DNA of 40,682 bases from an uncultured Erysipelotrichaceae bacterium (GTDB lineage Bacteria; Bacillota_I; Bacilli_A; Erysipelotrichales; Erysipelotrichaceae): NCBI GenBank assembly GCA_902786245.1, contig CADABS010000019.1, positions 1-40,682 on the forward strand. Direction: 5' to 3'. Made by a program: the position numbers and the translations under genes. The notes under the pieces are model-generated. The model searched no databases. It was not told where the DNA came from and saw nothing but the letters and a program-made list of their open reading frames with translations. Positions 2,599 through 17,940 of the stretch are shown here, in pieces; position 1 is the first letter of the stretch; each line of letters opens with the position of its first letter.

Positions 2599-2599
2599 C

Positions 2600-4225
2600 A
2601 TGAACCATATCTTTATTTCCTATTCCCGCAGAGACTCTGCGGCCGTCGGAATCATTGTGGAAAAACTGAGAGAAAAAGGCCTGAATGTATGGCAGGACAT
2701 TTCCGGCAAAGGATCCGGCATTCCGTTTTCCACCAAATGGTTTGCGGCCATTGAAGAAGCCCTGCACAATTCTGCCGGAGCCGTTGTATTCCGTTCTTTA
2801 TACTGGCAGAAATCCGTTCCCTGCCAGAAAGAATACAGATTGATTCAGAATCTCGCGATTCCCTGCTATGAAGCCAATGCCGAACTTCTTCTCTCACAGC
2901 AGATGATCGATGAAACGGTTGATCTGATTCTGTTATGGGCACAGTCGGATGTCTATGGCAATGAACAGAACGGACTGCGCACCTGGCTGCTTTCTTCGGT
3001 CAGTGCCATGCAGAACAGCCGCGGATCATCCGCCGGCATCCCCCGCTACCGGAAAAGAAAAGACGCCGATGACTTCCGTCAGAGACTGCAGAAAAGCAGT
3101 GCACTGGCAGAGGAACTGCATTATGCATCGAACATGCCGCAGCTGTATGCAGGCATTCAGTCATTCCTGAAAAAAGCCCGCAGAATTACTGCCTGGGACA
3201 GAATCAAACGGCCGCTGGCAATTGCCTTTGCGGCAGTCATGATCCTTGGCAGCGTATTGGCCAATGTATATTACAAACGGGAAAAGGACGATGCGGACGC
3301 GCATATCGCCGCATTGAAGAACCTGGACAGAATCACCGATGAAATCCGTTACGATGAACTCCGGGCACTGACCATGATGGCAGAAGATACATCCGATTAC
3401 GGAGAATACTTTGCCCTGCTGTATGAGAAATACACAGATGCCCTGGATACCGTATTCCCCGCCGGCTTCTATCCGGCCGGCACTGCCGAAGCACAAAGAA
3501 TACAGAGTCTGCCTGCCCAGACAGCAGCCGAAGGATATACAATCGAATGTTCCGGTACGCTCGGTCAGATCATTGTCCATCAGGATGCACCGGAAAACAC
3601 CGCAGAAGAGACGGTCAATCTGATGACATCTTCTCCTGTTACGGCATATGCATGTCAGAACGGATATCTTGCGGCCGCATGCGGAAGAGATGCATACCTG
3701 TATGATCTGAATCACGGACTGGACCTGATACCGCTGCGCTGCTGTTACAGAGATATCAGGGACATCCGCTTTGATGAAACCGGAAATATCTGTGCCATTA
3801 CAGAAGCAGGCGATGTCTATGTCTGGAACAATCCCCTCCCTGCAATCCTGAGCACACCGGATCAGAAAACCATTGAATTCATGAAACCGGTCTATACTTC
3901 ACAGGACGCATCCCTGCGCGTCCAGGCAGAACCGGATGGCACCCTGGTTATCACGGACCAGAAACACGACGCCGTCATATATCAATGCGGCCTGATCAGG
4001 GAACCGGTCGAAGGCGTATACCTGGATGAAGAAAAAAACAGGATCTGGGCGAAGGGATACAGCGGCGAATGCTACTGTATCGATGCCTCGCAGATCCTGG
4101 AAAACTATGATCCGGATGATCTTGTTTCTTTAAAGAATACCTATGATGCGCTGGTTCATCAGAAAAGCGATTTCCTGGTGAATGAACTGGGCATTGCCTA
4201 TAACTGGTTTACGGCCGGTCAATGA
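2600..4225 (+). CDS. TIR domain protein with transmembrane segment and degenerate propeller
   Basis: This 541-residue protein opens with an almost canonical TIR domain: IFISYSRRD (4-12), a BB-loop region with WQD (31-33), helix B (WFAAIEEAL), strand C (GAVVFRSLYW) and the CQKEY motif, whose E78 aligns with the catalytic glutamate of TIR NAD-cleaving enzymes. A linker (about 140-200) leads to one transmembrane helix at about 205-223. The remaining 315 residues are mostly beta, with two recognisable WD-like blades (YLAAACGRDAYLYDLNHG and IRDIRFDETGNICAITEAGDVYVWNN). The start follows AAAGGAGTGGGAATAAC, and the gene begins one base after the stop of its partner. The stop codon lies inside the terminator hairpin. 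The family is certain at the TIR level. NADase activity is plausible because the glutamate and BB-loop region are kept, but is not shown. The propeller assignment is weaker than in the first protein. Confidence 0.85.
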   Translation: MNHIFISYSRRDSAAVGIIVEKLREKGLNVWQDISGKGSGIPFSTKWFAAIEEALHNSAGAVVFRSLYWQKSVPCQKEYRLIQNLAIPCYEANAELLLSQQMIDETVDLILLWAQSDVYGNEQNGLRTWLLSSVSAMQNSRGSSAGIPRYRKRKDADDFRQRLQKSSALAEELHYASNMPQLYAGIQSFLKKARRITAWDRIKRPLAIAFAAVMILGSVLANVYYKREKDDADAHIAALKNLDRITDEIRYDELRALTMMAEDTSDYGEYFALLYEKYTDALDTVFPAGFYPAGTAEAQRIQSLPAQTAAEGYTIECSGTLGQIIVHQDAPENTAEETVNLMTSSPVTAYACQNGYLAAACGRDAYLYDLNHGLDLIPLRCCYRDIRDIRFDETGNICAITEAGDVYVWNNPLPAILSTPDQKTIEFMKPVYTSQDASLRVQAEPDGTLVITDQKHDAVIYQCGLIREPVEGVYLDEEKNRIWAKGYSGECYCIDASQILENYDPDDLVSLKNTYDALVHQKSDFLVNELGIAYNWFTAGQ

Positions 4226-5592: not shown

Positions 5593-8500
5593 TTAACGGA
5601 AATAATCCACTGCACCCCGGAAGATCAGATCTTCCTGATTCTGATCCGGGATATTTCTGTAGAGGTCCCTGCCGGAACGCTCGCTGTGTCCCATCTTGCC
5701 GAGAACTCTGCCGTCCTTTGAAGTAATGCCTTCAATGGCGAGAACTGAATTGTTCGGGTTGTAGCGGACATCCGATGTCGGATTGTCATCGAGATCGACA
5801 TACTGCGACATGATCTGGCCGTTGGCGATCAGTTCTTTCAGTACGTCTTCGTTCGCAACGAATCTTCCTTCGCCATGGGAAATGGCAACGGTATGGATAT
5901 CGCCGACATTGGCATAGCGCAGCCATGGCGAGAGATTGGAAGCCGTTCTTGTTCTTACCAGCATCGACTGGTGGCGTCCGATCGTATTGAATGTCAGGGT
6001 CGGACAGTTCTCATCCACATCGATGATCCTGCCATACGGGACAAGACCGAGCTTGATCAGTGCCTGGAAGCCGTTGCAGATACCGAGCATCAGACCTTCT
6101 CTTTCATCCAGCAGTTCCGTGACTGCTTCCTTGACCAGCGGATTGCGGAAGAATGCCGTAATGAATTTGCCCGATCCGTCCGGTTCATCACCGCCCGAGA
6201 ATCCGCCCGGTACGGCAATGATCTGGCTGTTTCTGATCGCTTCTGCAAACTTCTCTGCGCTTTCTTCGATATCCTTCGATGTCAGATTGCGGATGACGAA
6301 GATCTCCGCTTCCGCTCCTGCTCTTTCAAAGGCACGGGCTGTATCATATTCGCAGTTCGTACCCGGGAATACCGGAATCAGTACATGCGGCTTTGCACAT
6401 GTATAGGACGCATGCATCGGCTTGCCTTCAGTATAGCTGACCGGATCGATTTTTACTTCCGGATTGACATCGGTATACGGATAGACCGGCTGCAGCTTCT
6501 TCTCATAGATTTCCTGCAGCGCAGCCAGAGAAACCGTTCCCTCTGCGGTCTGCAGTTCATATGCATCAATGGTACGGCCGATGATCTCTGCACCTTCAAC
6601 CGGTTCTGCGCTTTCAAGGATGAATGCGCCATAGCACTTATCAAACAGATTCTCTTCTGTTTCCAGTTTCAGACCGATCCGGTTGCCCATTGCACACTTG
6701 AGAATCGCTTCGGCGATGCCGCCGCGTTCCAGTGTCCATGCGGACAGGACCTTATCCTCTTTGATCAGTGTTTCGACACAGTCAAAGACCTTGCGTACAC
6801 TCGCAAAATCAGGACATCCGTTTTCATCACAGGAAGGACGGATGACAGAAATCACGCTGCCTGCCTTCTTCCATTCCGGTGAAACGATTCTGTCTGCTTT
6901 TGCGGTCGATACCGTAAAGGCAACCAGGGTCGGAGGTACATCGATATCTTCGAAGGATCCGCTCATCGAATCCTTGCCGCCGATGGATGCGATTTCCAGT
7001 TCCATCTGCGCCTTCAGACCGCCCAGCAGGGCTCCGAACGGCAGACCCCATCTCTTCGGATCTTTATTGACTCTGCCGAAGTATTCCTGGAAACTCATCC
7101 AGGCATGGTGGTAGGAACCGCCTGCCGCAACGATCTTCGCAACCGACTCAATGACCGAAGCCATGGCGCCTTTATACGGAGACTGCGAACAGAGATACGG
7201 ATCATAGCCCCAGCTCATCAGCGATGCTGTATTGGTTTCGCCTTCCAGCACCGGAATCTTTGCGGCCATTGCCTGGTTCGGTGTCAGCTGTGTCTTTCCG
7301 CCGAAAGGCATCAGTACTGTACCGGCACCGATCGTACTGTCAAATCTCTCAGAGAGACCTTTCTGCGATGCGACATTCAGATCGCCGGCCAGGGCTTCCA
7401 GTTTCTCCTGCAGAGAACCTGTATAAACCGGTTCCGTGCTTTCTTTTTCGTTTCCTACGGATACATCCGTATATTTCGGTGCACCGTTGGAATTCAGGAA
7501 GTCTCTGGAGATATCCACGATCTTATGGCCGTCCAGCGTCATGATCATGCGCGGATCTTCGGTAACCACCGCAACGATCGTACTTTCCAGGTTCTCGGCA
7601 TCGGCCAGTGCCTGGAACTTCGCCGCATCTTCTTTGCGGGTAACGACTGCCATTCTCTCCTGCGATTCGGAGATTGCCAGTTCCGTACCGTTGAGGCCTT
7701 CGTATTTCTTCGGAACCTTGTTGAGATCGATCTGCAGACCGTCTGCCAGTTCACCGATCGCAACGGATACACCGCCGGCGCCGAAGTCATTGCACCGTCT
7801 GATCAGACGGGTCGCTTCCGGATTGCGGAACAGTCTCTGCAGCTTTCTTTCTTCCGGTGCATTTCCCTTCTGGACTTCTGCACCGCAGGATTCCAGCGAT
7901 TCGACGTTATGCGCCTTGGAAGAACCGGTTGCACCGCCGCATCCGTCTCTGCCGGTACGTCCGCCCAGCAGGATGACAACATCCCCTGCCTCCGGACGCT
8001 CACGGACAACATTTTCTGCCGGGGCAGCCGCAATGACACCGCCGAGTTCCATTCTCTTGGCAATATAGCCGGGATGATACAGCTCATGTACCATACCCGT
8101 CGCCAGACCGATCTGGTTGCCGTAGGAACTGTAGCCCTGAGCTGCTGTCGTAACGATCTTGCGCTGCGGCAGCTTTCCCTTCATGGTCTGATCTGCCGGT
8201 ACGAGCGGATCGCCGGCGCCGGTAATACGCATTGCCTGATAGACATAGCTTCTGCCTGACAGCGGATCGCGGATCGCCCCGCCCAGACACGTCGCAGCAC
8301 CGCCGAACGGCTCGATTTCCGTCGGATGGTTGTGCGTCTCATTCTTGAACATGAGCAGCCAGTCCTGATCCTCGCCGTTGACATCGACCGTGATCTTTAC
8401 AGAACATGCATTGATTTCTTCGCTTTCATCCAGGTCTGTCAGCTTGCCGGCCTTCTTCAGCGCCTTGGCACCGATCGTACCCAGATCCATCAGGGTTACC

Positions 8501-9300
8501 GGCTTCGGTGTTCTTCCGGCATAGACTTCTTTCCGCAGATCGATATATGCATCATAGGCTTCTCTGATATAAGCCGGTTCAATATCGATATTCTCAATGA
8601 TCGTATTGAATGTCGTATGACGGCAGTGATCGGACCAGTATGTATCAATCACGCGGATTTCCGTAATCGACGGATCGCGTTTTTCTTCCTCGCGGAAATA
8701 CTTCTGCAGGAAGGCGATATCCGCCAGGTCCATTGCCAGACCCAGTTCCCGGATCGTCTGTTCCAGTTCTGCTTCGCTTCTTTCACCGAATCCTTCCAGT
8801 ACTTCCGGCAGATCCGGTTTTTCATAGACCTGCTTGATCGTTTCCGGTTTTTCCAGCGCAGCTTCTCTGGCTTCGACCGGGTTGATCAGCGTATCCCGGA
8901 TGATTCTTTTGTCTTCATCGCTCAGACTGCCTTCGATGTAATACAGACGGGCACTGCGTACATCCGGACGCTCATGCATGGCGGCCAGCTGAATGCACTG
9001 GGCACAGCTGTCTGCCCGCTGATCGAACTGACCCGGGAGATATTCCACCGCCAGGATCCAGGCATCGCCCGCATCCGGTGCAGTTTCTTCATAGAAGTCA
9101 TCGACCTGCGGTTCCGAAAGAATCGTAAACCGGGCTGCTTCATAATCTTCTTTTGTAATATTTTCCAGATCATAGCGGTTCAGTACCCGCACCGCTTTGA
9201 CATGGTCATTGCGCAGGGCAATTGCCAGGTCATTCCTGACGCCGTTCGCCTCAACCGCAAACGGTGCTTTCTTCTCTACAAAACAACGATATACACTCAT
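5593..9300 (-). CDS. purL: Phosphoribosylformylglycinamidine synthase, single-chain (PurL with glutaminase)
   Basis: This cytoplasmic enzyme of 1235 residues makes FGAM from FGAR, ATP and glutamine (purine pathway step 4). It is the large fused form: an N-terminal PurS-like part, the linker, two AIRS-like synthetase halves (for example DTYWSDHCRHTTF, NETHNHPTEIEPFGGAATC, GGKDSM) and a C-terminal class I glutaminase. The glutaminase starts near HVLIPVFPGTNCE and has its nucleophile in LGICNGFQ (C1075) and the H1205/E1207 pair in MGHSER. Most Firmicutes use separate PurS, PurQ and PurL; the fused form is typical of proteobacteria and of some clostridia and Erysipelotrichia. The start is taken as the ATG at 9300, which overlaps the purD stop as TGATG with GAGGAA upstream. 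A GTG one codon earlier is an alternative. It is the last gene of the operon. Confidence 0.97.
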   Translation of the reverse strand: MSVYRCFVEKKAPFAVEANGVRNDLAIALRNDHVKAVRVLNRYDLENITKEDYEAARFTILSEPQVDDFYEETAPDAGDAWILAVEYLPGQFDQRADSCAQCIQLAAMHERPDVRSARLYYIEGSLSDEDKRIIRDTLINPVEAREAALEKPETIKQVYEKPDLPEVLEGFGERSEAELEQTIRELGLAMDLADIAFLQKYFREEEKRDPSITEIRVIDTYWSDHCRHTTFNTIIENIDIEPAYIREAYDAYIDLRKEVYAGRTPKPVTLMDLGTIGAKALKKAGKLTDLDESEEINACSVKITVDVNGEDQDWLLMFKNETHNHPTEIEPFGGAATCLGGAIRDPLSGRSYVYQAMRITGAGDPLVPADQTMKGKLPQRKIVTTAAQGYSSYGNQIGLATGMVHELYHPGYIAKRMELGGVIAAAPAENVVRERPEAGDVVILLGGRTGRDGCGGATGSSKAHNVESLESCGAEVQKGNAPEERKLQRLFRNPEATRLIRRCNDFGAGGVSVAIGELADGLQIDLNKVPKKYEGLNGTELAISESQERMAVVTRKEDAAKFQALADAENLESTIVAVVTEDPRMIMTLDGHKIVDISRDFLNSNGAPKYTDVSVGNEKESTEPVYTGSLQEKLEALAGDLNVASQKGLSERFDSTIGAGTVLMPFGGKTQLTPNQAMAAKIPVLEGETNTASLMSWGYDPYLCSQSPYKGAMASVIESVAKIVAAGGSYHHAWMSFQEYFGRVNKDPKRWGLPFGALLGGLKAQMELEIASIGGKDSMSGSFEDIDVPPTLVAFTVSTAKADRIVSPEWKKAGSVISVIRPSCDENGCPDFASVRKVFDCVETLIKEDKVLSAWTLERGGIAEAILKCAMGNRIGLKLETEENLFDKCYGAFILESAEPVEGAEIIGRTIDAYELQTAEGTVSLAALQEIYEKKLQPVYPYTDVNPEVKIDPVSYTEGKPMHASYTCAKPHVLIPVFPGTNCEYDTARAFERAGAEAEIFVIRNLTSKDIEESAEKFAEAIRNSQIIAVPGGFSGGDEPDGSGKFITAFFRNPLVKEAVTELLDEREGLMLGICNGFQALIKLGLVPYGRIIDVDENCPTLTFNTIGRHQSMLVRTRTASNLSPWLRYANVGDIHTVAISHGEGRFVANEDVLKELIANGQIMSQYVDLDDNPTSDVRYNPNNSVLAIEGITSKDGRVLGKMGHSERSGRDLYRNIPDQNQEDLIFRGAVDYFR

Positions 9301-10574
9301 CACTGTTTCCTCAGCTTTCTGCCGATATCGGTACGGTAATGCATATTCTCAAAACCGATTTCCTTCACGGCCGCATAGGATCTGTCCAGCGCTTCATCCA
9401 GATCTTTACCCAGAGCTGTAATGCCCAGTACTCTGCCGCCGTTTGTCAGATATGCACCGTTTTCTTTCTTTGTGCCGGCATGATAGACAAAGACGCCTTC
9501 TCTCTGGCCGTTTTCATCCAGACCGTAAATTTCATATCCCTTTTTGTAGCTCTCCGGATAGCCGCCGGATGCCTCGATGACACAGGCAGCGGCGCCGTCC
9601 TTCCAGCGGATATCAATATCCGAGAGACTGCCGTTGCGGCAGGCCTGCATGATTTCAAACAGATCGCTGTCGAGCAGGGGCAGAACGACCTGTGTTTCCG
9701 GATCGCCGAAACGGCAGTTGTATTCAACGACTCTGGGTCCCTTCGGTGTAAGCATCAGACCGAAATACAGACAGCCTCTGAATGTTCTGCCTTCCGCATT
9801 CATCGCATTCATCGTCGGCACGAAGATTTCCTCCATGCACTGCTTTGCGGTTTCTTCCGTGTAATACGGCGACGGTGCGATCGTACCCATTCCGCCGGTA
9901 TTCAGACCCTGATCATTGTCATTGGCCCGCTTATGATCCATGGAAGAGACCATCGGACAGATCGTCTTTCCGTCTGTAAAGGCAAGAACGGAAACTTCCG
10001 GTCCGGTCATGAATTCTTCCACGACAACTCTGGCACCGGCTCCGCCGAATGCCTGGTCGATCATGATTTCCTTGACTGCTTCTTCCGCATCCGCCATGGT
10101 CTGCGCAATCAGAACGCCTTTGCCCAGAGCCAGGCCATCCGCCTTGATAACTGCCGGGAAGCTGTTCTGTGTACGGATATAGTCCACTGCCTTCTGGGCA
10201 TCATCGAATACTTCATAGGCAGCGGTGGGAATGCCGTATTTCTTCATCAGATTCTTGGAGAATACCTTGGATGCCTCAATGATCGCCGCGTCTTTGGAAG
10301 GACCGAAGCAGGGAATGCCGTCTGCCTCGAGCAGATCCACCATGCCCAGAGCCAGGGGATCATCCGGTGTGACAACACAGAAATCAACCTGTTCTTCTTT
10401 CGCAAGGGAACGCATTCCTTCCAGATCTGTCGCCTTGACATCCGCGCATCTGGCCATCGCGGAAATACCGCCGTTGCCCGGTGCGCAGATAATCTCGTCA
10501 ATTGTCTTGTTTTCTTTCAGTTTCCGGATGACCGCATGTTCACGGCCGCCGGAACCGACTACCAGTACTTTCAT
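9300..10574 (-). CDS. purD: Phosphoribosylamine-glycine ligase (GAR synthetase)
   Basis: This 424-residue ATP-grasp enzyme joins phosphoribosylamine and glycine (step 2). It begins MKVLVVGSGGREHAVIRKL, the family's nucleotide-binding start, and continues with the expected blocks: CAPGNGG, VDFCVVTPDDPLALG, FPAVIKADGLALGKGV, VVVEEFMTGPEVSVLAF, DHKRANDNDQGLNTGGMG and the C-terminal VEYNCRFGDPETQ metal site. The frame can be extended 25 codons upstream, but the ATG at 10574 is preceded by AAGAGGT and starts exactly at the conserved N-terminus. It follows purH and is coupled to purL by an overlapping stop/start. Confidence 0.97.
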   Translation of the reverse strand: MKVLVVGSGGREHAVIRKLKENKTIDEIICAPGNGGISAMARCADVKATDLEGMRSLAKEEQVDFCVVTPDDPLALGMVDLLEADGIPCFGPSKDAAIIEASKVFSKNLMKKYGIPTAAYEVFDDAQKAVDYIRTQNSFPAVIKADGLALGKGVLIAQTMADAEEAVKEIMIDQAFGGAGARVVVEEFMTGPEVSVLAFTDGKTICPMVSSMDHKRANDNDQGLNTGGMGTIAPSPYYTEETAKQCMEEIFVPTMNAMNAEGRTFRGCLYFGLMLTPKGPRVVEYNCRFGDPETQVVLPLLDSDLFEIMQACRNGSLSDIDIRWKDGAAACVIEASGGYPESYKKGYEIYGLDENGQREGVFVYHAGTKKENGAYLTNGGRVLGITALGKDLDEALDRSYAAVKEIGFENMHYRTDIGRKLRKQ

Positions 10575-10591
10575 GGCTTTCAACCTCTTTA

Positions 10592-11767
10592 TCAATGATG
10601 GAACAGTCTGACTCCGTTGAATGCCATGACGATATTGTATCTGTCGCATGTTTCAATGACATTGTCATCACGGATCGATCCGCCCGGCTCGGCAATGTAG
10701 CAGACACCGCTCTTATGCGCACGTTCGATGTTGTCTCCGAACGGGAAGAACGCATCCGAACCCAGGGATACACCGGTATTCTTTGCCAGCCATTCCTTCT
10801 TTTCTTCTCTTGTCAGCGGTTCCGGCTTCTCGGTAAAAAACAGTTCCCATGTGCCGTCGCGCAGAACATCTTCATATTCATCGCCGATATATACATCGAT
10901 CGTGTTGTCGCGGTCCGCTCTGCGGATATCGCTTCTGAACGGCAGGGCAAGAACCTTCGGGTTCTGTCTCATCCACCAGTTGTCCGCCTTCTGTCCGGCC
11001 AGACGTGTGCAGTGTACACGGGACTGCTGACCGGCACCGACACCGATGACCTGACCGTTCTTGGCATATGCAACGCTGTTGGACTGCGTATATTTCAGAG
11101 TAATCAGGGCAATGATCAGATCGCGCTTGGCTTCATCCGGCATTTCCTTATTTGCCGTAACGATATTGGAAAGCAGCGATTCATCGATCTTGATTTCATT
11201 GCGTCCCTGTTCAAAGGTAACGCCGAATACCTGCTTGCGCTCGATCGGTGCCGGTACATAATCCGGATCGATCTGTACAACGTTATAGCCGCCCTTGCGC
11301 TTTGCCTTCAGGATTTCCAGAGCTTCCTCTGTGTAGCCCGGCGCAATGATACCGTCACTGACTTCCTTGCGGATCAGCAGGGCTGTATCTTTGTCGCAGA
11401 TATCCGACAGTGCACACCAGTCGCCGTAGGAGCTCATGCGGTCTGCGCCTCTGGCTCTTGCATAGGCACTGGCGATCGGCGAAAGATCCTGGTCGCCTGT
11501 GAAATAGATCTTCTTTTCAACATCCGTCAGCGGTGTGCCTACGGCTGCACCGGCCGGAGATACATGCTTGAAGCTTGCGGCAGAAGGAAGTCCGGTGGCT
11601 TCCTTGAGTTCCTTGACCAGCTGCCAGCTGTTCAGTGCATCCAGGAAATTGATATAGCCGGGTCTGCCGTTGAGTACAGTGACGGGAAGTTCGCCTTCCT
11701 CCATGAAAATGCGGGAAGGTTTCTGGTTGGGGTTGCAGCCGTATTTCAGTTCAAGTTCTTTTGCCAT
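10592..11767 (-). CDS. purH: AICAR formyltransferase, stand-alone (no IMP cyclohydrolase domain)
   Basis: This 391-residue protein corresponds to only the AICAR-transformylase part of bifunctional PurH (usually about 510-530 residues). The MGS-like cyclohydrolase domain is absent from the N-terminus. It transfers a formyl group from 10-formyl-THF to AICAR. Family blocks seen are LKYGCNPNQKPSRIF, VLNGRPGYINFLDALN, AASFKHVSPAGAAVG (the KH pair of the active site), GYNVVQID, TLKYTQSNSVAYAKNGQVIGVGAGQQSRVHC and SDAFFPFGDNIERAHKSGV. The ATG at 11767 is chosen because GGAGG lies 8 bases upstream; an ATG two codons earlier sits too close to that site. The missing cyclohydrolase step is supplied by the gene immediately upstream (PurO type). 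Confidence 0.95.
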   Translation of the reverse strand: MAKELELKYGCNPNQKPSRIFMEEGELPVTVLNGRPGYINFLDALNSWQLVKELKEATGLPSAASFKHVSPAGAAVGTPLTDVEKKIYFTGDQDLSPIASAYARARGADRMSSYGDWCALSDICDKDTALLIRKEVSDGIIAPGYTEEALEILKAKRKGGYNVVQIDPDYVPAPIERKQVFGVTFEQGRNEIKIDESLLSNIVTANKEMPDEAKRDLIIALITLKYTQSNSVAYAKNGQVIGVGAGQQSRVHCTRLAGQKADNWWMRQNPKVLALPFRSDIRRADRDNTIDVYIGDEYEDVLRDGTWELFFTEKPEPLTREEKKEWLAKNTGVSLGSDAFFPFGDNIERAHKSGVCYIAEPGGSIRDDNVIETCDRYNIVMAFNGVRLFHH

Positions 11768-11782
11768 GATCATATCCTCCTG

Positions 11783-12490
11783 TTATTTAACGTTCTTATT
11801 GTAGATGCGGGTCTTGATTTCACCGGTCTCCAGATCGATGGAACGGGTGAACAGAGATACTTTATTGTCCGGATTCAGCGCTTCCCAGACATGGTCGGAG
11901 AAATCATCGAAGGATTCTTTCACGACTTCAAACAGAACCGGTTCTCCTTCAAAGGAAGGGATCGGATTGCCGTTTTCCTTATAGGTATGAACGATATGTC
12001 CATAGCCCGGCACACCGTCTGTATAGTCGAAGAACTGACGGTGAGCACTGTCCGGATTGCCGTCTGCGCTCTTGAGAACGGACATCTGATAGGCAGCCCC
12101 GTTCACGACTGCGCTGATTCTCGGCGTATAATTGGGCGCATCCGGTTCAAATGTTCTTGTCCGCAGTGCATCCTCAAAGGATTTTCCCTGCCCGAGATAT
12201 TCATAGATCGTATCTGTCTGATCGCCGTTGGTAACGATCTGCGTATCATTGATGACGCGGACAGGCGCATAGATGATCAGAGAAGGATCAACCATTTTGG
12301 AAGGATCGAACGCTTCCGTACGGATTCCCTTTCCTTCTTCCACGAAGACACGGTTGCGGCTGTTTTCGCTGCGTCCCATGATGAAGTATGCAATGCGCAT
12401 CTTTCTGCCGCACGGTGTGCGTCCGACAGCGATGCCGCGGCCGGGATATTCATTTGCCTTCAGATAATCATATAAGTTGACTGCCTTCAT
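11783..12490 (-). CDS. purO: IMP cyclohydrolase, PurO (archaeal) type
   Basis: This 235-residue protein is not related to the cyclohydrolase domain of PurH. It resembles the PurO/IMP_cyclohyd family first known from archaea, which closes the ring of FAICAR to IMP. Recognisable parts are the start (YLKANEYPGRGIAVGRTPCGRKMRIAYFIMGRSENSRNRVF), VDPSLIIYAPVR, TNGDQTDTIYEYLGQGKSFEDALRTRTFEPDAPNYTPRIS and GYGHIVHTYKENGNPIPSFEGEP. Its position between purN and the stand-alone AICAR transformylase completes the last two steps of the pathway. The ATG overlaps the purN stop as ATGA. The assignment is from motif memory and context; I am confident in both. Confidence 0.9.
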   Translation of the reverse strand: MKAVNLYDYLKANEYPGRGIAVGRTPCGRKMRIAYFIMGRSENSRNRVFVEEGKGIRTEAFDPSKMVDPSLIIYAPVRVINDTQIVTNGDQTDTIYEYLGQGKSFEDALRTRTFEPDAPNYTPRISAVVNGAAYQMSVLKSADGNPDSAHRQFFDYTDGVPGYGHIVHTYKENGNPIPSFEGEPVLFEVVKESFDDFSDHVWEALNPDNKVSLFTRSIDLETGEIKTRIYNKNVK

Positions 12491-13092
12491 TGTTTTTCCT
12501 CCTCAATCTGTTTTGCGATCATTTCCGCAGCCTGCGGAAGCAGTATCCATTCTGCCTGTTCCATGACCCTGCGCTGCAGGATTTCCGGCGTATCGCCTTC
12601 CTCGATGGAAACAGCCTTCTGCAGCAGGATCCTTCCCCCGTCGGGAATTTCGTTGACAATGTGCACCGTCGCACCGGTCACCTTGACACCCCGCTTCAGA
12701 GCTTCTTCATGCACTTTCAGACCATAGAATCCCTTGCCGCAGAAACTCGGAATCAGGGATGGATGGATGTTGATCATCCGGTCCGTATATGCCCGGATGA
12801 CTTTTTCCGACAGAATACTCAGATATCCGGCCAGAATGACCATTTCGATATCATGTTCCTTCAGTGTCTTCAGGATCGCATCATCGAAGCTGTCCTGGTT
12901 TTCATAATCCTTCCGCCGGACAACTGCCGTATCAATGCCGGCATTCTCTGCTCTTGTCAGAGCATATGCTTTCGGATTGCTCGCAAGGACCAGAACGATC
13001 CTGCCATGGGGAATCTTCCCGGCATTCTGCGCATCGATCAGCGCCTGCAGATTCGTGCCGCCGCCGGAGACAAGAACCGCGATCCGGGTCAT
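12487..13092 (-). CDS. purN: Phosphoribosylglycinamide formyltransferase (GAR transformylase)
   Basis: This 201-residue enzyme uses 10-formyl-THF to formylate GAR (step 3). It opens with RIAVLVSGGGTNLQALID, the phosphate-binding loop, and has the catalytic set N108 and H110 in MINIHPSLIPSF and D151 in NEIPDGG, matching the N/H/D triad of the E. coli enzyme. Length and layout are standard. The gene is joined to purM upstream and purO downstream by 4-base ATGA overlaps, so translation is coupled through the block. Confidence 0.97.
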   Translation of the reverse strand: MTRIAVLVSGGGTNLQALIDAQNAGKIPHGRIVLVLASNPKAYALTRAENAGIDTAVVRRKDYENQDSFDDAILKTLKEHDIEMVILAGYLSILSEKVIRAYTDRMINIHPSLIPSFCGKGFYGLKVHEEALKRGVKVTGATVHIVNEIPDGGRILLQKAVSIEEGDTPEILQRRVMEQAEWILLPQAAEMIAKQIEEEKQ

Positions 13093-14135
13093 TTCTCTTC
13101 GATCACTACGGAGTGATCGCCCTCGCTCATATGGCCGATGACATTTGCGTCAATGCCGCAGCCGCGCAGACATTCCAGAGCCGCGTCCGCATTTTCCGGC
13201 GATACGATCACGATCATGCCGACACCCATATTGAAGGTATTGTACATATCGTGCTCGGAGATATTTCCAGTCTTCTGGATCAGATCGAAGACGGGCAGGA
13301 CTTTCCATGTGCCTTTCTGAATCACCGCATTCAGGTTTTCACCGAATGCCCGGGGCATATTCTCATAGAAGCCGCCGCCGGTAATATGGGCAATGGACTT
13401 CACCGGAACCTTCTTCAGAAGCTCAAGGACCGGCTTTACATAGATCACCGTCGGTGTCAGAAGCGCTTCGCCCAGAGGCTTGCCAAGCACATCCGCATAG
13501 GCATGGATGGATTCGCCGCCTTCAATGTCGAAGACCTTTCTGACCAGTGAGAAACCGTTGGAATGCACACCGCTGGAAGCCAGACTGATAATGACATCTC
13601 CAGCCTTCACCGATGTCTTGTCCAGGATCTTCTTTTCATCGACGATACCCACCGCAAAACCGGCAAGGTCATATTCATCTTCCGGCATCAGACCCGGATG
13701 TTCGGCTGTTTCGCCGCCGACCAGTGCACAGCCTGCCTGTACACAGCCGTCCGCAACGCCTTTGACGATTTCCGCAATCTTCTCCGGAACGTTTTTGCCG
13801 CAGGCAATGTAATCCAGGAAGAACAGCGGCGCACCGCCTGTGCAGATAATGTCATTGACGCACATGGCAACGCAGTCAATGCCGATCGTATCATGCTTTT
13901 CCAGCATGAATGCCAGTTTCAGCTTTGTACCGACACCGTCCGTACCGGATACCAGAACCGGCTTCTCCATACCCGCCATCTGCGGTGCGAAGAGACCGCC
14001 GAATCCGCCGATACTGTCAAGAACACCGGGGATCTTTGTCTTTGCGACGTGTTCCTTCATCAGTTCCACAGACGCATATCCTGCCGTTACATCTACACCG
14101 GCAGCTTTGTAACTGTCACTGTAACTCTTTTCCAT
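13089..14135 (-). CDS. purM: Phosphoribosylformylglycinamidine cyclo-ligase (AIR synthetase)
   Basis: This 348-residue enzyme closes FGAM to AIR (step 5). Features are the N-terminal SYKAAGVDVTAGYASVELM, PVLVSGTDGVGTKLKLAFML, CVAMCVNDIICTGGAPLFFLDYIACG, LVGGETAEHPGLM and SIAHITGGGFYENMPRAF, all family signatures of the PurM/AIRS fold. Length is normal. It lies 16 bases after purE and overlaps purN by 4 bases. Confidence 0.97.
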   Translation of the reverse strand: MEKSYSDSYKAAGVDVTAGYASVELMKEHVAKTKIPGVLDSIGGFGGLFAPQMAGMEKPVLVSGTDGVGTKLKLAFMLEKHDTIGIDCVAMCVNDIICTGGAPLFFLDYIACGKNVPEKIAEIVKGVADGCVQAGCALVGGETAEHPGLMPEDEYDLAGFAVGIVDEKKILDKTSVKAGDVIISLASSGVHSNGFSLVRKVFDIEGGESIHAYADVLGKPLGEALLTPTVIYVKPVLELLKKVPVKSIAHITGGGFYENMPRAFGENLNAVIQKGTWKVLPVFDLIQKTGNISEHDMYNTFNMGVGMIVIVSPENADAALECLRGCGIDANVIGHMSEGDHSVVIEEK

Positions 14136-14151: not shown

Positions 14152-14649
14152 TTAAAACTCCTTCAGCCGTTCTGCCAGACCGGCATCTTTCTTCAGTACG
14201 CCTTCGGTCTGTTTCCGGCGGTCCGCTTCGATCTTCGCAGCCAGTTCCGCATCGCCTACGGCAAGAATCTCTGCCGCAAGATAGGCTGCGTTCTTGGCTC
14301 CGTCAATCGCTACGGTCGCTACCGGAATGCCGCTGGGCATCATAACCGTCGCAAGCAGCGCGTCTGTTCCCTCCAGCACCGCTGACTTCAGCGGTACACC
14401 GATCACCGGCAGAGTTGTATGGGCTGCCAGTACTCCGGCCAGGGCTGCTGCCATGCCGGCACCGGCAATGATGACGCCGAATCCGTTATCCCGTGCATTT
14501 GCCGCAAAGGAAGCGGCCTGTTCAGGTGTACGGTGTGCAGAATATACATGTGCCTCATACGGAATTCCGTAATCTTCGAGAACCTTTACTGCTTTGGCCA
14601 TGACAGGCAGATCACTGTCCGAGCCCATGATGATCGCTGCTTTTTTCAT
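14152..14649 (-). CDS. purE: N5-carboxyaminoimidazole ribonucleotide mutase, class I PurE
   Basis: This 165-residue protein begins KKAAIIMGSDSDLPVM and contains VYSAHRTPE with the catalytic H39 and the GAGMAAALAGVLAAHTTLPVIGVP block. This is the class I mutase that isomerises N5-CAIR to CAIR and normally works with PurK, which is not in the window. It is the first gene of the operon. Its AAGGAGG ribosome binding site (about 14656-14667) directly follows the T run of a terminator hairpin, so expression requires read-through of that hairpin. Confidence 0.96.
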   Translation of the reverse strand: MKKAAIIMGSDSDLPVMAKAVKVLEDYGIPYEAHVYSAHRTPEQAASFAANARDNGFGVIIAGAGMAAALAGVLAAHTTLPVIGVPLKSAVLEGTDALLATVMMPSGIPVATVAIDGAKNAAYLAAEILAVGDAELAAKIEADRRKQTEGVLKKDAGLAERLKEF

Positions 14650-14670
14650 TCACTGTATCCTCCTTCAAAC

Positions 14671-14699
14671 AAAACAGCCTATGGAAAATCCACAGGCTG
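14671..14699 (-). terminator. Intrinsic terminator / attenuator in the purE leader
   Basis: On the minus strand CAGCCT-G-TGG and CCA-T-AGGCTG (14694-14699, 14690-14692, 14682-14684, 14675-14680) form a stem with a small loop, followed by TTTTGTTTG and then the purE Shine-Dalgarno. There is no room for a promoter between the hairpin and purE. It is therefore either an attenuator or a terminator that the purine operon must read through. Confidence 0.75.
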
Positions 14700-14709
14700 C
14701 GTATGCATT

Positions 14710-14811
14710 CTATTCAATATCCGCCGTATGAAAAACTCCGCCATGCAGAAAACGGGCACCGGCTTTCACAAAAACATCTTTTGTCTGGAGAGTCATAACA
14801 ACTGACGCCAT
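14710..14811 (-). CDS. 33-residue leader ORF upstream of purE
   Basis: A short frame starting MASVVMTLQTKDVFVKA has a very strong ribosome binding site (AAGGAAGGAGC, ending 1-2 bases before the ATG region) and lies about 50 nt downstream of a predicted promoter. Its TAG stop is only about 10 nt before the 5' arm of the terminator hairpin ahead of purE. That placement is the usual geometry of translation-coupled attenuation, in which a ribosome near the stop would cover the stem. I do not recognise the peptide, and it has no run of a single amino acid that would point to a tRNA-sensing mechanism. It could alternatively be an independent small protein whose gene simply ends at that terminator. 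Confidence 0.5.
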   Translation of the reverse strand: MASVVMTLQTKDVFVKAGARFLHGGVFHTADIE

Positions 14812-14868
14812 AGCTCCTTCCTTTCTGCCCGACGGGGTTCCGGTTACCAAACGAAAAAGAACAGTATC

Positions 14869-14896
14869 ATCGTAACAGAAATGCATTAAATGTAAA
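14869..14896 (-). promoter_or_regulatory. Promoter of the purine operon leader
   Basis: On the minus strand TTTACA (14891-14896) and TACGAT (14869-14874) are spaced 16 bp, with TG one base before the -10 (extended -10). Transcription would start near 14862, giving a leader of about 210 nt before purE. The promoter lies just past the stop of the cupin gene. Confidence 0.55.
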
Positions 14897-14911
14897 GGCA
14901 ATTTCCTCTCA

Positions 14912-15595
14912 CTATCCGGCTGTACTGTCAAATACCGAAAGACATGCAATCCTGCATCTGTCAGAAACCTGGAAAGAATGCATGACACCGTCTTCGATCA
15001 GGAAAGATTCCCCCTCATGAAGCACTTCTTCCCTGCCGTTGTACAGAATATGCAGATATCCTTCCAGCACGGTTACGATCGTTTCTCCGTTGGACTGTAC
15101 CTCTTCCCCGGTCTGTCCTTTCTGAATGGCCAGCAGGAACAGACGCAGGTTGTCACCTTCGATCAGATCGATCCGGCTGACGCCTTCCTCAGAATAGCGG
15201 AGCATATTCTTCAGATAGAATACATCCCATTCCTTCAGGCGCTGATGGAAATTCGCATCCAGCGGAAATCCGATTTCCGTATATACACAGTCCTGAATAC
15301 TGCGGAATTCACACAGCACATAGGCAGGCCGGACAAATACGCCGCCCGGTTCAAGCATGGCCATTTTTCTGGCATCGTTTTCTTTATACTCGACCTGCAG
15401 TTTTCCAGTGATACAGATATATATTGCCGGATGAGAGTATCTTTCCGGTTCGATATATGTATCCGTCCCCAGGGAATAATGGGCAATGCTGTAGCCCTGT
15501 TCATTGAAAGTCATGTTTGTGATGATCGCATTGGGAAGCGGCCGGTTGTCCTGTGCGATACTGTAGACCTGGCCCGGTTTTTCCGAAATAATCAT
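14912..15595 (-). CDS. Double-cupin domain protein
   Basis: This 227-residue protein has two beta-barrel cupin segments: about 45-105 (SHPAIYICITGKLQVEY ... MLEPGGVFVRPAYVL) and about 165-222 (ETIVTVLEGYLHILYNG ... HEGESFLIEDGVMHSFQVSD). The second has the G(X)5HXH-derived spacing only in weak form (one histidine at GVMHSF), so metal binding is uncertain. Such bicupins serve as sugar- or small-ligand-binding sensor domains or isomerases. The gene begins within the stop of a MocR-type regulator (ATGA overlap, with AAAGGAG before it), so the two are translated together. The regulator ends exactly where a MocR sensor/aminotransferase domain should still have about 100 residues to go, and a joint function is tempting. 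Substrate unknown. Confidence 0.75.
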   Translation of the reverse strand: MIISEKPGQVYSIAQDNRPLPNAIITNMTFNEQGYSIAHYSLGTDTYIEPERYSHPAIYICITGKLQVEYKENDARKMAMLEPGGVFVRPAYVLCEFRSIQDCVYTEIGFPLDANFHQRLKEWDVFYLKNMLRYSEEGVSRIDLIEGDNLRLFLLAIQKGQTGEEVQSNGETIVTVLEGYLHILYNGREEVLHEGESFLIEDGVMHSFQVSDRCRIACLSVFDSTAG

Positions 15596-16650
15596 ACCTG
15601 CTCCTTTCTGTGCATCCTGCGCATCCGGTTCAGATGCCGTTCAAAACTGCCGTTGTTCAGCACTTCCGCGATCGTATATTGCAGCAGTGAAGATACCGTA
15701 CACGAACGGAACGAAATCATATCGAGGATCTCCTGTGTCCTCTGTTCCGGCAGGATCATATAGCCCGCCCTGACAGAAGACGCAATCGTCTTTGTAAATG
15801 TATTCATATATATAATATGATACACCGGCTCCATCGAAAACAGCGTCGGCCTTGCCCGGCCCGGAGCCGTAAACTCAGAGGCATAGTCGTCTTCGATGAT
15901 CAGCGCATCCCTCTGCACTGCCCACTGCACGTATTCCCGCAGTTTGTTCTCATCCGCTGTATTCATCGAAGGGAAGCTCCGGTACGGTGTTACATGCAGC
16001 ACCGCTGCGTCCGTCTTCTGCAGCGCTTTGGAATCAATGCCGTTTTCCGTCAGAGGCAGCGGATCGACCTTGGCACCGCTGGCCTGATAGATGTTGCGGA
16101 TCTGCGCATAGGAAGGATCTTCGATCCCGTAGACGCAGTCTCTTCCGGCAATCTGCACAACCAGTGAATACAGATACTCCGATCCGGAACCGATGACGAT
16201 CTGTTCCGGTTTTACACTGATATTCCGGCTGCGCAGCAGATATGATGCGATCGCCTGCCGCAGATACAGACATCCCGTTCCTTCCGTCGGTGAAAGGATC
16301 TGACTGCCGTGATCCGCAAGAACCTTGCGTACCGCTCTGGCAAACACCGTATAGGGAAAGCTTTCTTCCTGTGCACCGGAGGATACGGCTGTTTCCGCCA
16401 GTTCCTTTTCCGGCATTGAAAACAGTTCTTCTTTCCGGTAAATGACATAGCATCCGCTGCGCTCACGGGCCTGCAGATAGCCTTCTTCACACAGCAGCGC
16501 ATATGCATGTTCAACGGTGATCGGACTGACGCCTTCCGCCTGCGCCGTTGCGCGTTTGGACGGCAGCCGCATACCGTATGCATATGCCCCCTGCACGATT
16601 TCATTCCGCAGTTTTCTGTATATACGAAGATATTCCGCTTCTCTTTTCAT
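15592..16650 (-). CDS. MocR-type GntR/aminotransferase regulator, C-terminally short
   Basis: This 352-residue protein has an N-terminal GntR winged helix (LRIYRKLRNEIVQGAYAYGMRLPSKRATAQAEGVSPITVEHAYALL, about 8-54) followed by a fold-type I aminotransferase-like domain (IVIGSGSEYLYSLV, IEDPSYAQIR, IIEDDYASEF) with the PLP lysine in NTFTKTIAS (K287). MocR proteins are usually about 450-480 residues. This one stops at FERHLNRMRRMHRKEQV, where the C-terminal small domain normally begins. Its stop overlaps the next gene's start, so the truncation is fixed, not a window effect. A much longer upstream open frame runs antisense to the CapA gene and is rejected: the start at 16650 coincides with the conserved N-terminus. 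Regulators of this family often control PLP, GABA or amino-acid genes; the target here is probably the adjacent cupin gene or the divergent capA. Confidence 0.88.
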   Translation of the reverse strand: MKREAEYLRIYRKLRNEIVQGAYAYGMRLPSKRATAQAEGVSPITVEHAYALLCEEGYLQARERSGCYVIYRKEELFSMPEKELAETAVSSGAQEESFPYTVFARAVRKVLADHGSQILSPTEGTGCLYLRQAIASYLLRSRNISVKPEQIVIGSGSEYLYSLVVQIAGRDCVYGIEDPSYAQIRNIYQASGAKVDPLPLTENGIDSKALQKTDAAVLHVTPYRSFPSMNTADENKLREYVQWAVQRDALIIEDDYASEFTAPGRARPTLFSMEPVYHIIYMNTFTKTIASSVRAGYMILPEQRTQEILDMISFRSCTVSSLLQYTIAEVLNNGSFERHLNRMRRMHRKEQV

Positions 16651-16656
16651 ATATCC

Positions 16657-16665
16657 ATCATAACA
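16657..16665 (-). promoter_or_regulatory. Extended -10 of the MocR gene, six bases from its ATG
   Basis: The minus strand reads TGT-TATGAT (16657-16665 complement) with exactly six bases (16651-16656) before the ATG at 16650. The start site (about 7 nt after the -10) would fall on the A of the ATG. No Shine-Dalgarno is present and no good -35 is seen. Confidence 0.5.
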
Positions 16666-16697
16666 GTTTTGCGCAGAACATAGAAACCTGGCGGGTA

Positions 16698-16728
16698 TTG
16701 GCAAGGTCTGCATCGCGCGTGATACAAT
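16698..16728 (+). promoter_or_regulatory. Promoter of the CapA-family gene, six bases from its ATG
   Basis: TTGGCA (16698-16703) and an extended -10, TGA-TACAAT (16720-16728), are spaced 19 bp. Six bases (16729-16734) separate the -10 from the ATG at 16735, so the mRNA is predicted to be leaderless. An in-frame TGA at 16720-16722 excludes an earlier start. Confidence 0.55.
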
Positions 16729-16734
16729 GCATAT

Positions 16735-17940
16735 ATGAAAAACAGAAAAATGCGTCCTTTTGTGAAATATCTCCTGATCATTCTGATCCCGTCCCTGTGC
16801 ACAGTCCTGGCGGATACTGCACTCCGGCCTTTCCTGCGCCCTGAAACCGAAGAACCGCAGGAAGAAACCGCCGAAGAACCGGCTGAACCGGAAAAACCCG
16901 TTACCAGTACATTGTCCCTGTATATGATCGGCGATGCATTGGTACAGACACCCAATGACTGGGATGCCGAAAGAGAAGACGGAACCTATGACTGGAGTTC
17001 CCAGATGGACGGCATCGCAGATATCGCTTCTTCGTACGATCTGGCTTTCTATAACCAGGAATGCATCCTTGGCGGAGACTACCTGGGCATGACCAGCTTC
17101 CCCCATTTCAACTGTCCGCAGTCCTATGGCGAATACATGGTTTCCAAAGGCTTCAATCTGGTCTCTGTCGCAAACAACCATTCCCTGGATAAAGACGCGG
17201 AGGGATGCATCAATTCCCATGCTTTCTGGGAAGAGCAGAAAGACGCTGTCACCTCCGGCATCAATATGTCCTGGGAAGAAAGACAGGCCGTACCTGTCTA
17301 TGAAAAAAACGGCATCACCTATGCCTTTACCGCCTGGACCTATGATACAAACGGATGGCTGCCGCCGGAAGGAATGGAATATCTGGTCAATACCTACAGA
17401 GGCTCGGAAGAAGAACTCCTGCAATGGGTCCGCACCGCAGATACAAAAGCGGACTTCGTCATCGTATCCATGCACTGGGGCACCGAATACACCCACCAGC
17501 CCGATGAAGAACAGCTCCGCCTGGCCCAGCAGCTCGCCGATGCCGGTGCTGATGTGATCATCGGCAACCATGCCCATCATACCCAGCCCATCCAGTGGCT
17601 CAATGACGGAAAAACAATCTGTTTCTATGCCCTCGGCAATATGCTCAGTGCCCAGACCTATGAAGGGATCTGCACCTGGGAAGAACTCAACACCGGCATT
17701 GCCGCTTCCCTGGTCATGGAAAAGACCGAAAATCCCGACGGTACCGTCACTAAGCAGGTCAGAGATGTCAGAGCAGATCTGATCTTCACCTATAACACCG
17801 AAGTCTATACGCACATGTTCTCCGTTTTCTACAAAGACCTGACCGAAGAAATGATGCCCGGCCATGAAGACTGGTACCAATGGCATATCGATAACGTCAT
17901 CCATGCCATGGATCCTTCCATTCATGTCGGTCTGCAGTGA
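16735..17940 (+). CDS. CapA-family (PGA_cap) metallophosphatase-like protein, membrane anchored
   Basis: This 401-residue protein has an N-terminal signal anchor (about 10-28), then a Glu/Pro-rich linker (36-55), then a CapA/PGA_cap domain: LYMIGDALV (D67), NQECILGG, NLVSVANNHSLD, FVIVSMHWGTEY and DVIIGNHAHHTQP. These correspond to the metal-binding motifs of calcineurin-like phosphoesterases. CapA-type proteins are linked to poly-gamma-glutamate capsule synthesis, but lone CapA-family genes are common in Firmicutes and their substrate is mostly unknown. No capB, capC or capE is adjacent, so capsule synthesis is not implied. The catalytic domain is expected outside the membrane. It is divergent from the MocR gene and abuts the EamA gene tail to tail. 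Confidence 0.85.
   Translation: MKNRKMRPFVKYLLIILIPSLCTVLADTALRPFLRPETEEPQEETAEEPAEPEKPVTSTLSLYMIGDALVQTPNDWDAEREDGTYDWSSQMDGIADIASSYDLAFYNQECILGGDYLGMTSFPHFNCPQSYGEYMVSKGFNLVSVANNHSLDKDAEGCINSHAFWEEQKDAVTSGINMSWEERQAVPVYEKNGITYAFTAWTYDTNGWLPPEGMEYLVNTYRGSEEELLQWVRTADTKADFVIVSMHWGTEYTHQPDEEQLRLAQQLADAGADVIIGNHAHHTQPIQWLNDGKTICFYALGNMLSAQTYEGICTWEELNTGIAASLVMEKTENPDGTVTKQVRDVRADLIFTYNTEVYTHMFSVFYKDLTEEMMPGHEDWYQWHIDNVIHAMDPSIHVGLQ

Follow-up and report, generated by a model that had tools for sequence, protein, structure and literature searches.

Bacterial purine operons are known to be controlled by PurR repressors and by riboswitches that act directly on a terminator or on a Shine–Dalgarno (SD) sequence. 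In the pyrBI attenuator of Escherichia coli, translation of a leader open reading frame (ORF) up to the terminator prevents termination; the sequence of the leader peptide is irrelevant, and T-runs lie 5′ of the terminator. Terminators near a stop codon in E. coli are repressed by the arriving translating ribosome, as a section of PMC4824070 describes.

The window, by which we mean the whole stretch of 40,682 bases analysed here, contains a purine operon with a leader spanning 14650–14896, all of it read on the minus strand. The leader and the operon consist of the following features:

14869..14896, minus strand: predicted sigma-70 promoter (9/12 consensus matches, 16-nt spacer)
14783..14852, minus strand: conserved RNA block, drawn as a three-way junction (alignment, pair counts, covariance model)
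14814..14825, minus strand: Shine–Dalgarno region of the leader ORF, GAAAGGAAGGAG (sequence reading)
14710..14811, minus strand: leader ORF with ATG, 33 codons and TAG, MASVVMTLQTKDVFVKAGARFLHGGVFHTADIE (ORF translation)
14731..14750, minus strand: weak hairpin and T5 run within the ORF, a possible pause site or first terminator (terminator prediction; TTTT in relatives)
14664..14700, minus strand: intrinsic terminator, stem 14700–14674 plus T-rich tail, TTTGTTTG (terminator prediction; fold energy)
14659..14665, minus strand: purE Shine–Dalgarno sequence AAGGAGG (sequence reading)
14152..14649, minus strand: purE (AIR carboxylase), first gene of the operon (PF00731, 202.9 bits)
5593..14135, minus strand: rest of the operon, namely purM (AIR synthase), purN (formyl transferase), an IMP cyclohydrolase-like gene, AICARFT, purD (GAR synthetase) and purL (FGAM synthase) (Pfam domain search)

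An earlier sequence-only reading of this DNA had named a promoter, an SD, a 33-codon ORF and an intrinsic terminator before purE, and all four were present, as was the abutment of the terminator's T-rich tail on the SD of purE. The ORF stop does lie next to the terminator stem, at a distance of 9 nt (14709–14701) rather than the 10 nt given by that reading. The promoter has TTTACA as its −35 element (14896–14891) and TACGAT as its −10 element (14874–14869), and promoters of a similar TTTAC.../TATAAT-like type were seen by eye 5′ of the ORF in many relatives. The terminator stem has 12 pairs and a 3-nt loop, with a fold energy of −19.3 kcal/mol. Because only 24 nt separate the end of the stem from purE, a promoter cannot fit between the two, as the sequence-only reading had argued; a second promoter-like match (14734–14707, 9/12) lies 5′ of the hairpin and would not bypass it. 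Compared with 200 shuffles, the 219-nt leader RNA folded better than 198.

The region upstream of the promoter (14912–17925) carries, on the same strand, genes for a cupin protein and for a 777-aa GntR-aminotransferase protein, in which about 430 residues before the GntR domain have no Pfam match. At 262–4225, a 778-aa ORF without a Pfam match is directly followed by a 541-aa TIR-domain protein; these two form a possible defence pair.

We give roughly even odds (about 0.5) to the reading that the purE leader is a translation-dependent transcription attenuator, in which the RNA block gates initiation on the leader ORF and a ribosome at the ORF stop blocks the terminator.

The ORF and terminator across the purE clade

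Within the window's genus, purE was found at 58 places in 57 of the 70 genomes, and within the family in 156 of 272 genomes. Leaders were examined at 61 purE loci, of which 55 belong to the genus and the remaining 6 to two near genera; three genus loci (G047, G062 and G077) and the more distant family loci fall outside this set. The purE tree placed 45 rows, including the window's own, together with support of 96/98, and one of them (L052), cut by a contig end, was left out, leaving 44 leaders. The plan of ORF plus terminator recurred in 44 of the 61 leaders, all of them in this one clade, and each of the 44 has an SD-preceded ORF of 24–51 codons whose stop lies between 13 nt 5′ of the stem and beyond the stem. 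The sequence-only reading had proposed such a comparison of relatives; no leader of the clade kept the hairpin and lost the ORF, which ends at or inside the terminator in 44/44.

The other 16 rows comprised eight ZTP-type leaders (L017, L061, L062, L063, L065 and L066 by Rfam; L068 and L070 by eye only), five leaders of another, unrecognised type (L018, L019, L020, L067 and L069) and three rows without a clear leader (L021, L057 and L060). The five unrecognised leaders come from a single branch, and by eye all of them have a hairpin, a CAACTGA-CGCCGACC...GGTCGG-like element and a T-run before purE. No Rfam riboswitch match was found in the three of them that were scanned (L018, L067 and L069), and the element is possibly an unrecognised or degenerate riboswitch beside ZTP-bearing relatives. 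Within the clade, four of the 44 leader ORFs (L006, L009, L011 and L014) run through the terminator and end as an ATGA overlap with purE, which by its sequence would additionally allow translational coupling; the window leader has no such overlap.

In 44/44 leaders the frame of the ORF (frame 0) stayed open until 13 nt or less from the stem, or ran into it, compared with 7 for the +1 frame and 18 for the +2 frame, and dinucleotide shuffles gave an expectation of 0.25 open frames per leader; ORF starts were partly picked by hand, with attention to an SD and a length of 12 codons or more, a choice that gives frame 0 some advantage. The 44 leaders are mutually related, and they fall into 14 sequence clusters, in which frame 0 was open in 14/14 and the other frames in 3 and 2, against 2.8 expected. 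The SD of the leader ORF reads GAAAGG in 24/44 leaders, GGAAGG in 17/44 and AGGAGG in 2/44, the last being a form that stands more often in front of purE and of other genes.

The distance from stop to terminator has to be read against ordinary genes. In a 0.44-Mb sample of the genome, the stop was equally close at 70 of the 149 gene ends with terminators, so closeness alone is not special, and nearness of a ribosome to the stem does not by itself imply an effect. What is special is the uniformity (44/44), together with the 18 of 44 leaders whose stops lie inside or past the stem, compared with 27/149 gene ends. That such distances are common at gene ends of this genome, and that the peptide is not conserved, would fit a chance frame or degenerate remnant in front of a terminator that merely lowers expression of the operon without regulating it. 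We consider this unlikely, because the frame is open in every leader and every cluster where about a quarter would be expected, and because the SD of the ORF differs from the usual SD of the genome.

We then compared the leader ORF codon by codon in 15 relatives. Codons 1–10 lie inside the RNA block and the remaining codons are free in sequence: per-position differences for the three codon positions were 0.15/0.15/0.16 over codons 2–10 and 0.59/0.63/0.66 over codons 11–28 (ungapped comparison), and 0.15/0.11/0.55 for purE in the same 15 genomes. The equally low values at all three positions of codons 2–10, unlike the pattern in purE, point to a constraint on RNA or DNA and not on the peptide. 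Since the peptide is not conserved past codon 10, translation of the ORF, rather than its product, seems to be what matters.

The peptide itself could in principle be the sensor, as in classical attenuators or arrest peptides, with an amino acid or small molecule detected through ribosome stalling. A short, translated-looking ORF 5′ of a terminator would suit such a peptide, as would the N-terminus MASVVMTL(Q/R)T, which is conserved in the window's group. We nevertheless regard it as very unlikely: none of the 44 leader ORFs contains a run of relevant regulatory codons, three equal residues in a row occur in 7/44 leader peptides only and are of mixed kinds, conservation is lacking in the C-terminal part, and in the N-terminal part synonymous sites are under as much constraint as the others.

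Runs of T are frequent in the ORF region, with TTTT in 42/44 leaders (17 expected) and the pause motif TTNTTT in 25/44 (7.6 expected); by eye, the strict TTNTTT motif is absent from the window ORF. TTNTTT is a NusG motif that acts in a uORF attenuator of Bacillus subtilis, according to a part of PMC9226507, and the T-runs in the leader ORFs could slow polymerase. A hairpin of −4 kcal/mol or stronger directly 5′ of a T-run in the ORF was present in 15/44 leaders (3.4 expected), and because hairpin and T-run occur together in this part of the leaders only, we rejected an ORF-internal terminator as a general feature. Coupling of the pyrBI kind without a dedicated sensor, in which the ORF would be translated constitutively and nucleotide-sensitive pausing at T-runs would decide whether the ribosome arrives at the terminator, accounts for the T-runs in 42/44 leaders, for the free peptide, the kept frame and the stop at the terminator, and it would also suit leaders that lack the block. 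It strikes us as improbable all the same, because a T-run would report UTP and not purines, and because such coupling leaves unexplained both the constraint on the block around the start codon, seen in 15 genomes, and the PyrR-loop-like element in 8.

Conserved elements at the ORF start

The attenuator reading that we favour assigns the gating role to the RNA block around the ORF start. From 14852 to 14783 the sequence is nearly identical across 15 genomes, and the block is present in 15 and absent from 29 of the 44 leaders. A covariance model (R1) matched 15 of the 272 family genomes with E<1e-19, once in each and at purE loci, and a scan of a named-species genome collection, by pattern only, found 12 places, and every record concerned carried Erysipelotrichaceae or Solobacterium in its title. 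The block matches no Rfam family.

Drawn as a three-way junction, the block has a P1 helix of 14852–14847 with 14788–14783 (GUUUGG with CC(AG or GA)AC), a short P2 hairpin of 14838–14835 with 14830–14827 that shows compensatory changes, and a P3 helix of 14817–14814 plus 14812–14807 with 14799–14794 plus 14792–14789, which contains the ORF start codon; the AAGGA of the SD lies between P2 and P3. Across the alignment, 97.1% of 240 cells were paired in this arrangement, against at most 52% with slid partners. CG to UA and AU to GC changes occur in P2, and a CAG/CGA swap at codon 9 leaves P1 paired; P3 is invariant apart from one wobble and so lacks covariation support. Pairs changed on both sides number 2, no more than shuffles give, since 326 of 500 attain this count. 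With the same alignment, RNAalifold omitted P1 and preferred a longer P3. The window's 78-nt block folded alone no better than shuffles (z +0.65), and the junction had almost zero probability in the longer window RNA. P1-like helices in L002, L003 and L032, close relatives without the block, appeared in single folds only and were no better than shuffles.

The constraint at the RNA level, the compact and conserved junction, and the ZTP riboswitches that distant relatives carry 5′ of purE are all compatible with a switch made of RNA alone, the block being an aptamer or protein site, termination being controlled by base pairing, and the ORF being incidental. Such a switch has only a small chance of being correct in our estimate: the ORF and terminator are kept in the 29 of 44 leaders without the block, about 80 nt separate the 3′ end of the block from the terminator, and in folds of the window leader RNA the terminator had a probability of 1.0 and no antiterminator was seen.

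In eight relatives (L012–L016, L058, L059 and L064; L056, with a degenerate loop, is excluded), the place of the block is occupied by a PyrR-loop-like element, which consists of CCUUUAA, then a GUGAGG, GCGAGG or GUGAGA loop, then a G(A or G)AAGG strand 5′ of the ORF. Its AAAGGA strand is the SD of the ORF. Because the 3′ strand of the loop thus doubles as the SD, we infer that PyrR bound at the loop in these relatives should block the leader ORF. The metabolic sign is awkward, since UMP-bound PyrR would then turn purine synthesis off. Published PyrR sites include ARUCCAGAGAGGYU, as given in a portion of PMC7430163. With the PyrR-site model RF00515, 7/8 of these purE leaders scored 23–39 bits, under the gathering score of 54 bits; other RF00515 matches in the genus scored at most 46 bits, and in three genomes (G050, G007 and G001) the purE leader was the best PyrR match among those listed. 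A PyrR protein (NF003549) was above cut-off in 25 of the 70 genus genomes and in 7 of the 8 PyrR-loop genomes, the exception, G050, being 78% complete. When a model (R2) made from 8 non-purE PyrR loops was applied to the 61 purE loci, four of its six best hits fell on predicted loops, at only E 1.5–3.3 and 13–14.5 bits. PyrR-site-like leaders were also noted at L074, L076 and L078, 5′ of a membrane transporter that by eye is dicarboxylate or glutamate symporter-like, and others 5′ of a uracil-permease-like gene.

Neither the window nor its genome had an RF00515 match, and PyrR was not above cut-off in that genome (NF003549 37 bits, cut-off 138); on these grounds a direct PyrR site in the window was rejected. 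By eye, P2 and GAAAGGA of the window resemble the upper stem and 3′ strand of a PyrR loop, which we treat as a lead only; a short scan of L042, the relative most alike by eye, showed no PyrR.

The sequence-only reading had recognised no known riboswitch core, and this stood: Rfam 15, with its purine, PRPP and other riboswitches, gave 0 matches in the window at threshold, and a known riboswitch was rejected after relaxed scans of 14500–15000 and 14770–14870 returned chance-level names only. The ZTP riboswitch (RF01750) was not found in the window or its genome, nor did any stand at purE in a genome that contributed one of the 44 leaders; it is present in 8 of the 70 genus genomes, and in the family's more distant purE lineages it lies 5′ of that gene. 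Two genomes (G002 and G044) have a window-type purE leader and a ZTP riboswitch elsewhere, and that of G002 (L146:985–1127) is 5′ of an ORF that by eye reads like pyruvate formate-lyase. The distinction from PurR control that the same reading had drawn also agrees with our searches, in which PurR of the B. subtilis type (TIGR01743) was above cut-off in 0/70 genus genomes; the best match in the window's genome reached 59.9 bits (cut-off 258.7) and covered profile positions 83–233 only.

On the purE tree the block has a scattered distribution that takes 7 changes to explain, the PyrR-loop group forms a single branch, and the part made of ORF and terminator is common to all 44 leaders. On the simplest reading of these sequences, the ORF–terminator relay would be older than the present sensors, or else the block would have been lost several times.

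Proposed mechanism and relation to known systems

Comparison of the leaders shows, as far as sequence goes, a conserved plan, an open ORF, a free peptide and a constraint at the RNA level around the ORF start. In the mechanism we propose, transcription would start just 5′ of the structured block. With the block folded, P3 would hold the ORF's start codon, the ORF would stay untranslated, the terminator would form and the purine genes would be off. When the block is open, a ribosome would initiate on the ORF and disrupt the block, the 3′ arms of which are codons 1–10. Once at the stop, 9 nt 5′ of the terminator, the ribosome would hinder the stem and polymerase would read through into purE–purL. 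The T-run within the ORF may hold polymerase until the ribosome catches up. We infer the sign (translation leading to read-through), the contact between ribosome and terminator, and the pause.

The sequence-only reading thus had the right kind of control, translation-dependent attenuation, and was incomplete in missing the RNA block at the ORF start codon in 15 genomes. Because a conserved block surrounds that codon, control is probably exerted where ribosomes initiate on the ORF, and not only through a ribosome close to the stop. The ribosome that this reading placed near the stop to block the stem would likely be one finishing translation rather than a stalled one. Runaway transcription in Bacillota speaks against this step; a part of PMC13323073 classes Bacillota as runaway transcribers. 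The coding-strand purine content was 0.53 in the genome sample.

A further, tentative proposal, which we hold to be possible though doubtful, is that the junction block represents a new class of RNA sensor for a metabolite, confined to some 15 Erysipelotrichaceae species, and controls purine synthesis by gating a disposable ORF whose translation is relayed to the terminator. The sensor would have been exchanged within the genus (PyrR-loop-like, junction or neither) and the relay kept. If this is true, a sensor that acts on a disposable ORF could be swapped, and regulation of a core pathway could be rewired after loss of a regulator. The relay would also offer a test case for ribosome-dependent attenuation in a lineage whose polymerase is believed to run ahead of the ribosomes. 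We found no report of this purE leader in open PMC papers, a scope outside which most subscription papers lie.

Among known systems, amino-acid leader-peptide attenuators have a run of regulatory codons and a mutually exclusive antiterminator, neither of which was found in the purE leader. The ZTP riboswitch likewise stands 5′ of purE, but in the more distant lineages of the family. Like pyrBI, the purE leaders have an ORF that runs into an intrinsic terminator or ends beside it and a peptide that is unconstrained, here across 44 leaders; unlike pyrBI, they serve a purine operon of Bacillota, have structured RNA where the ORF begins in those leaders with the block or a PyrR-like loop, and show no sign of UTP as the signal.

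With the PyrR-dependent pyr attenuators, the purE leaders of eight relatives share a PyrR-loop-like element. In pyr leaders, however, the loop acts directly on the antiterminator, as a portion of PMC7430163 describes, and by eye the pyr leaders of the window's genus have no ORF between loop and terminator, whereas the purE leaders have an intervening ORF. The vmlR leader of B. subtilis, as presented in a part of PMC9226507, is similar in its uORF-dependent transcription attenuation, its T-rich polymerase pause and its occurrence in Bacillota; it differs in needing antibiotic-stalled ribosomes and an antiterminator, neither of which was seen in the purE leader. The B12 riboswitch–uORF relay of Mycobacterium tuberculosis ppe2, in the account that a section of PMC11260477 gives, has an RNA sensor that gates initiation on a small ORF and relays the signal to the operon, an arrangement that the purE leader would share through its predicted sensor. 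Where ppe2 works mainly by termination–reinitiation at an AUGA overlap, according to the same section, the purE leader has an intrinsic terminator between the ORF and the gene.
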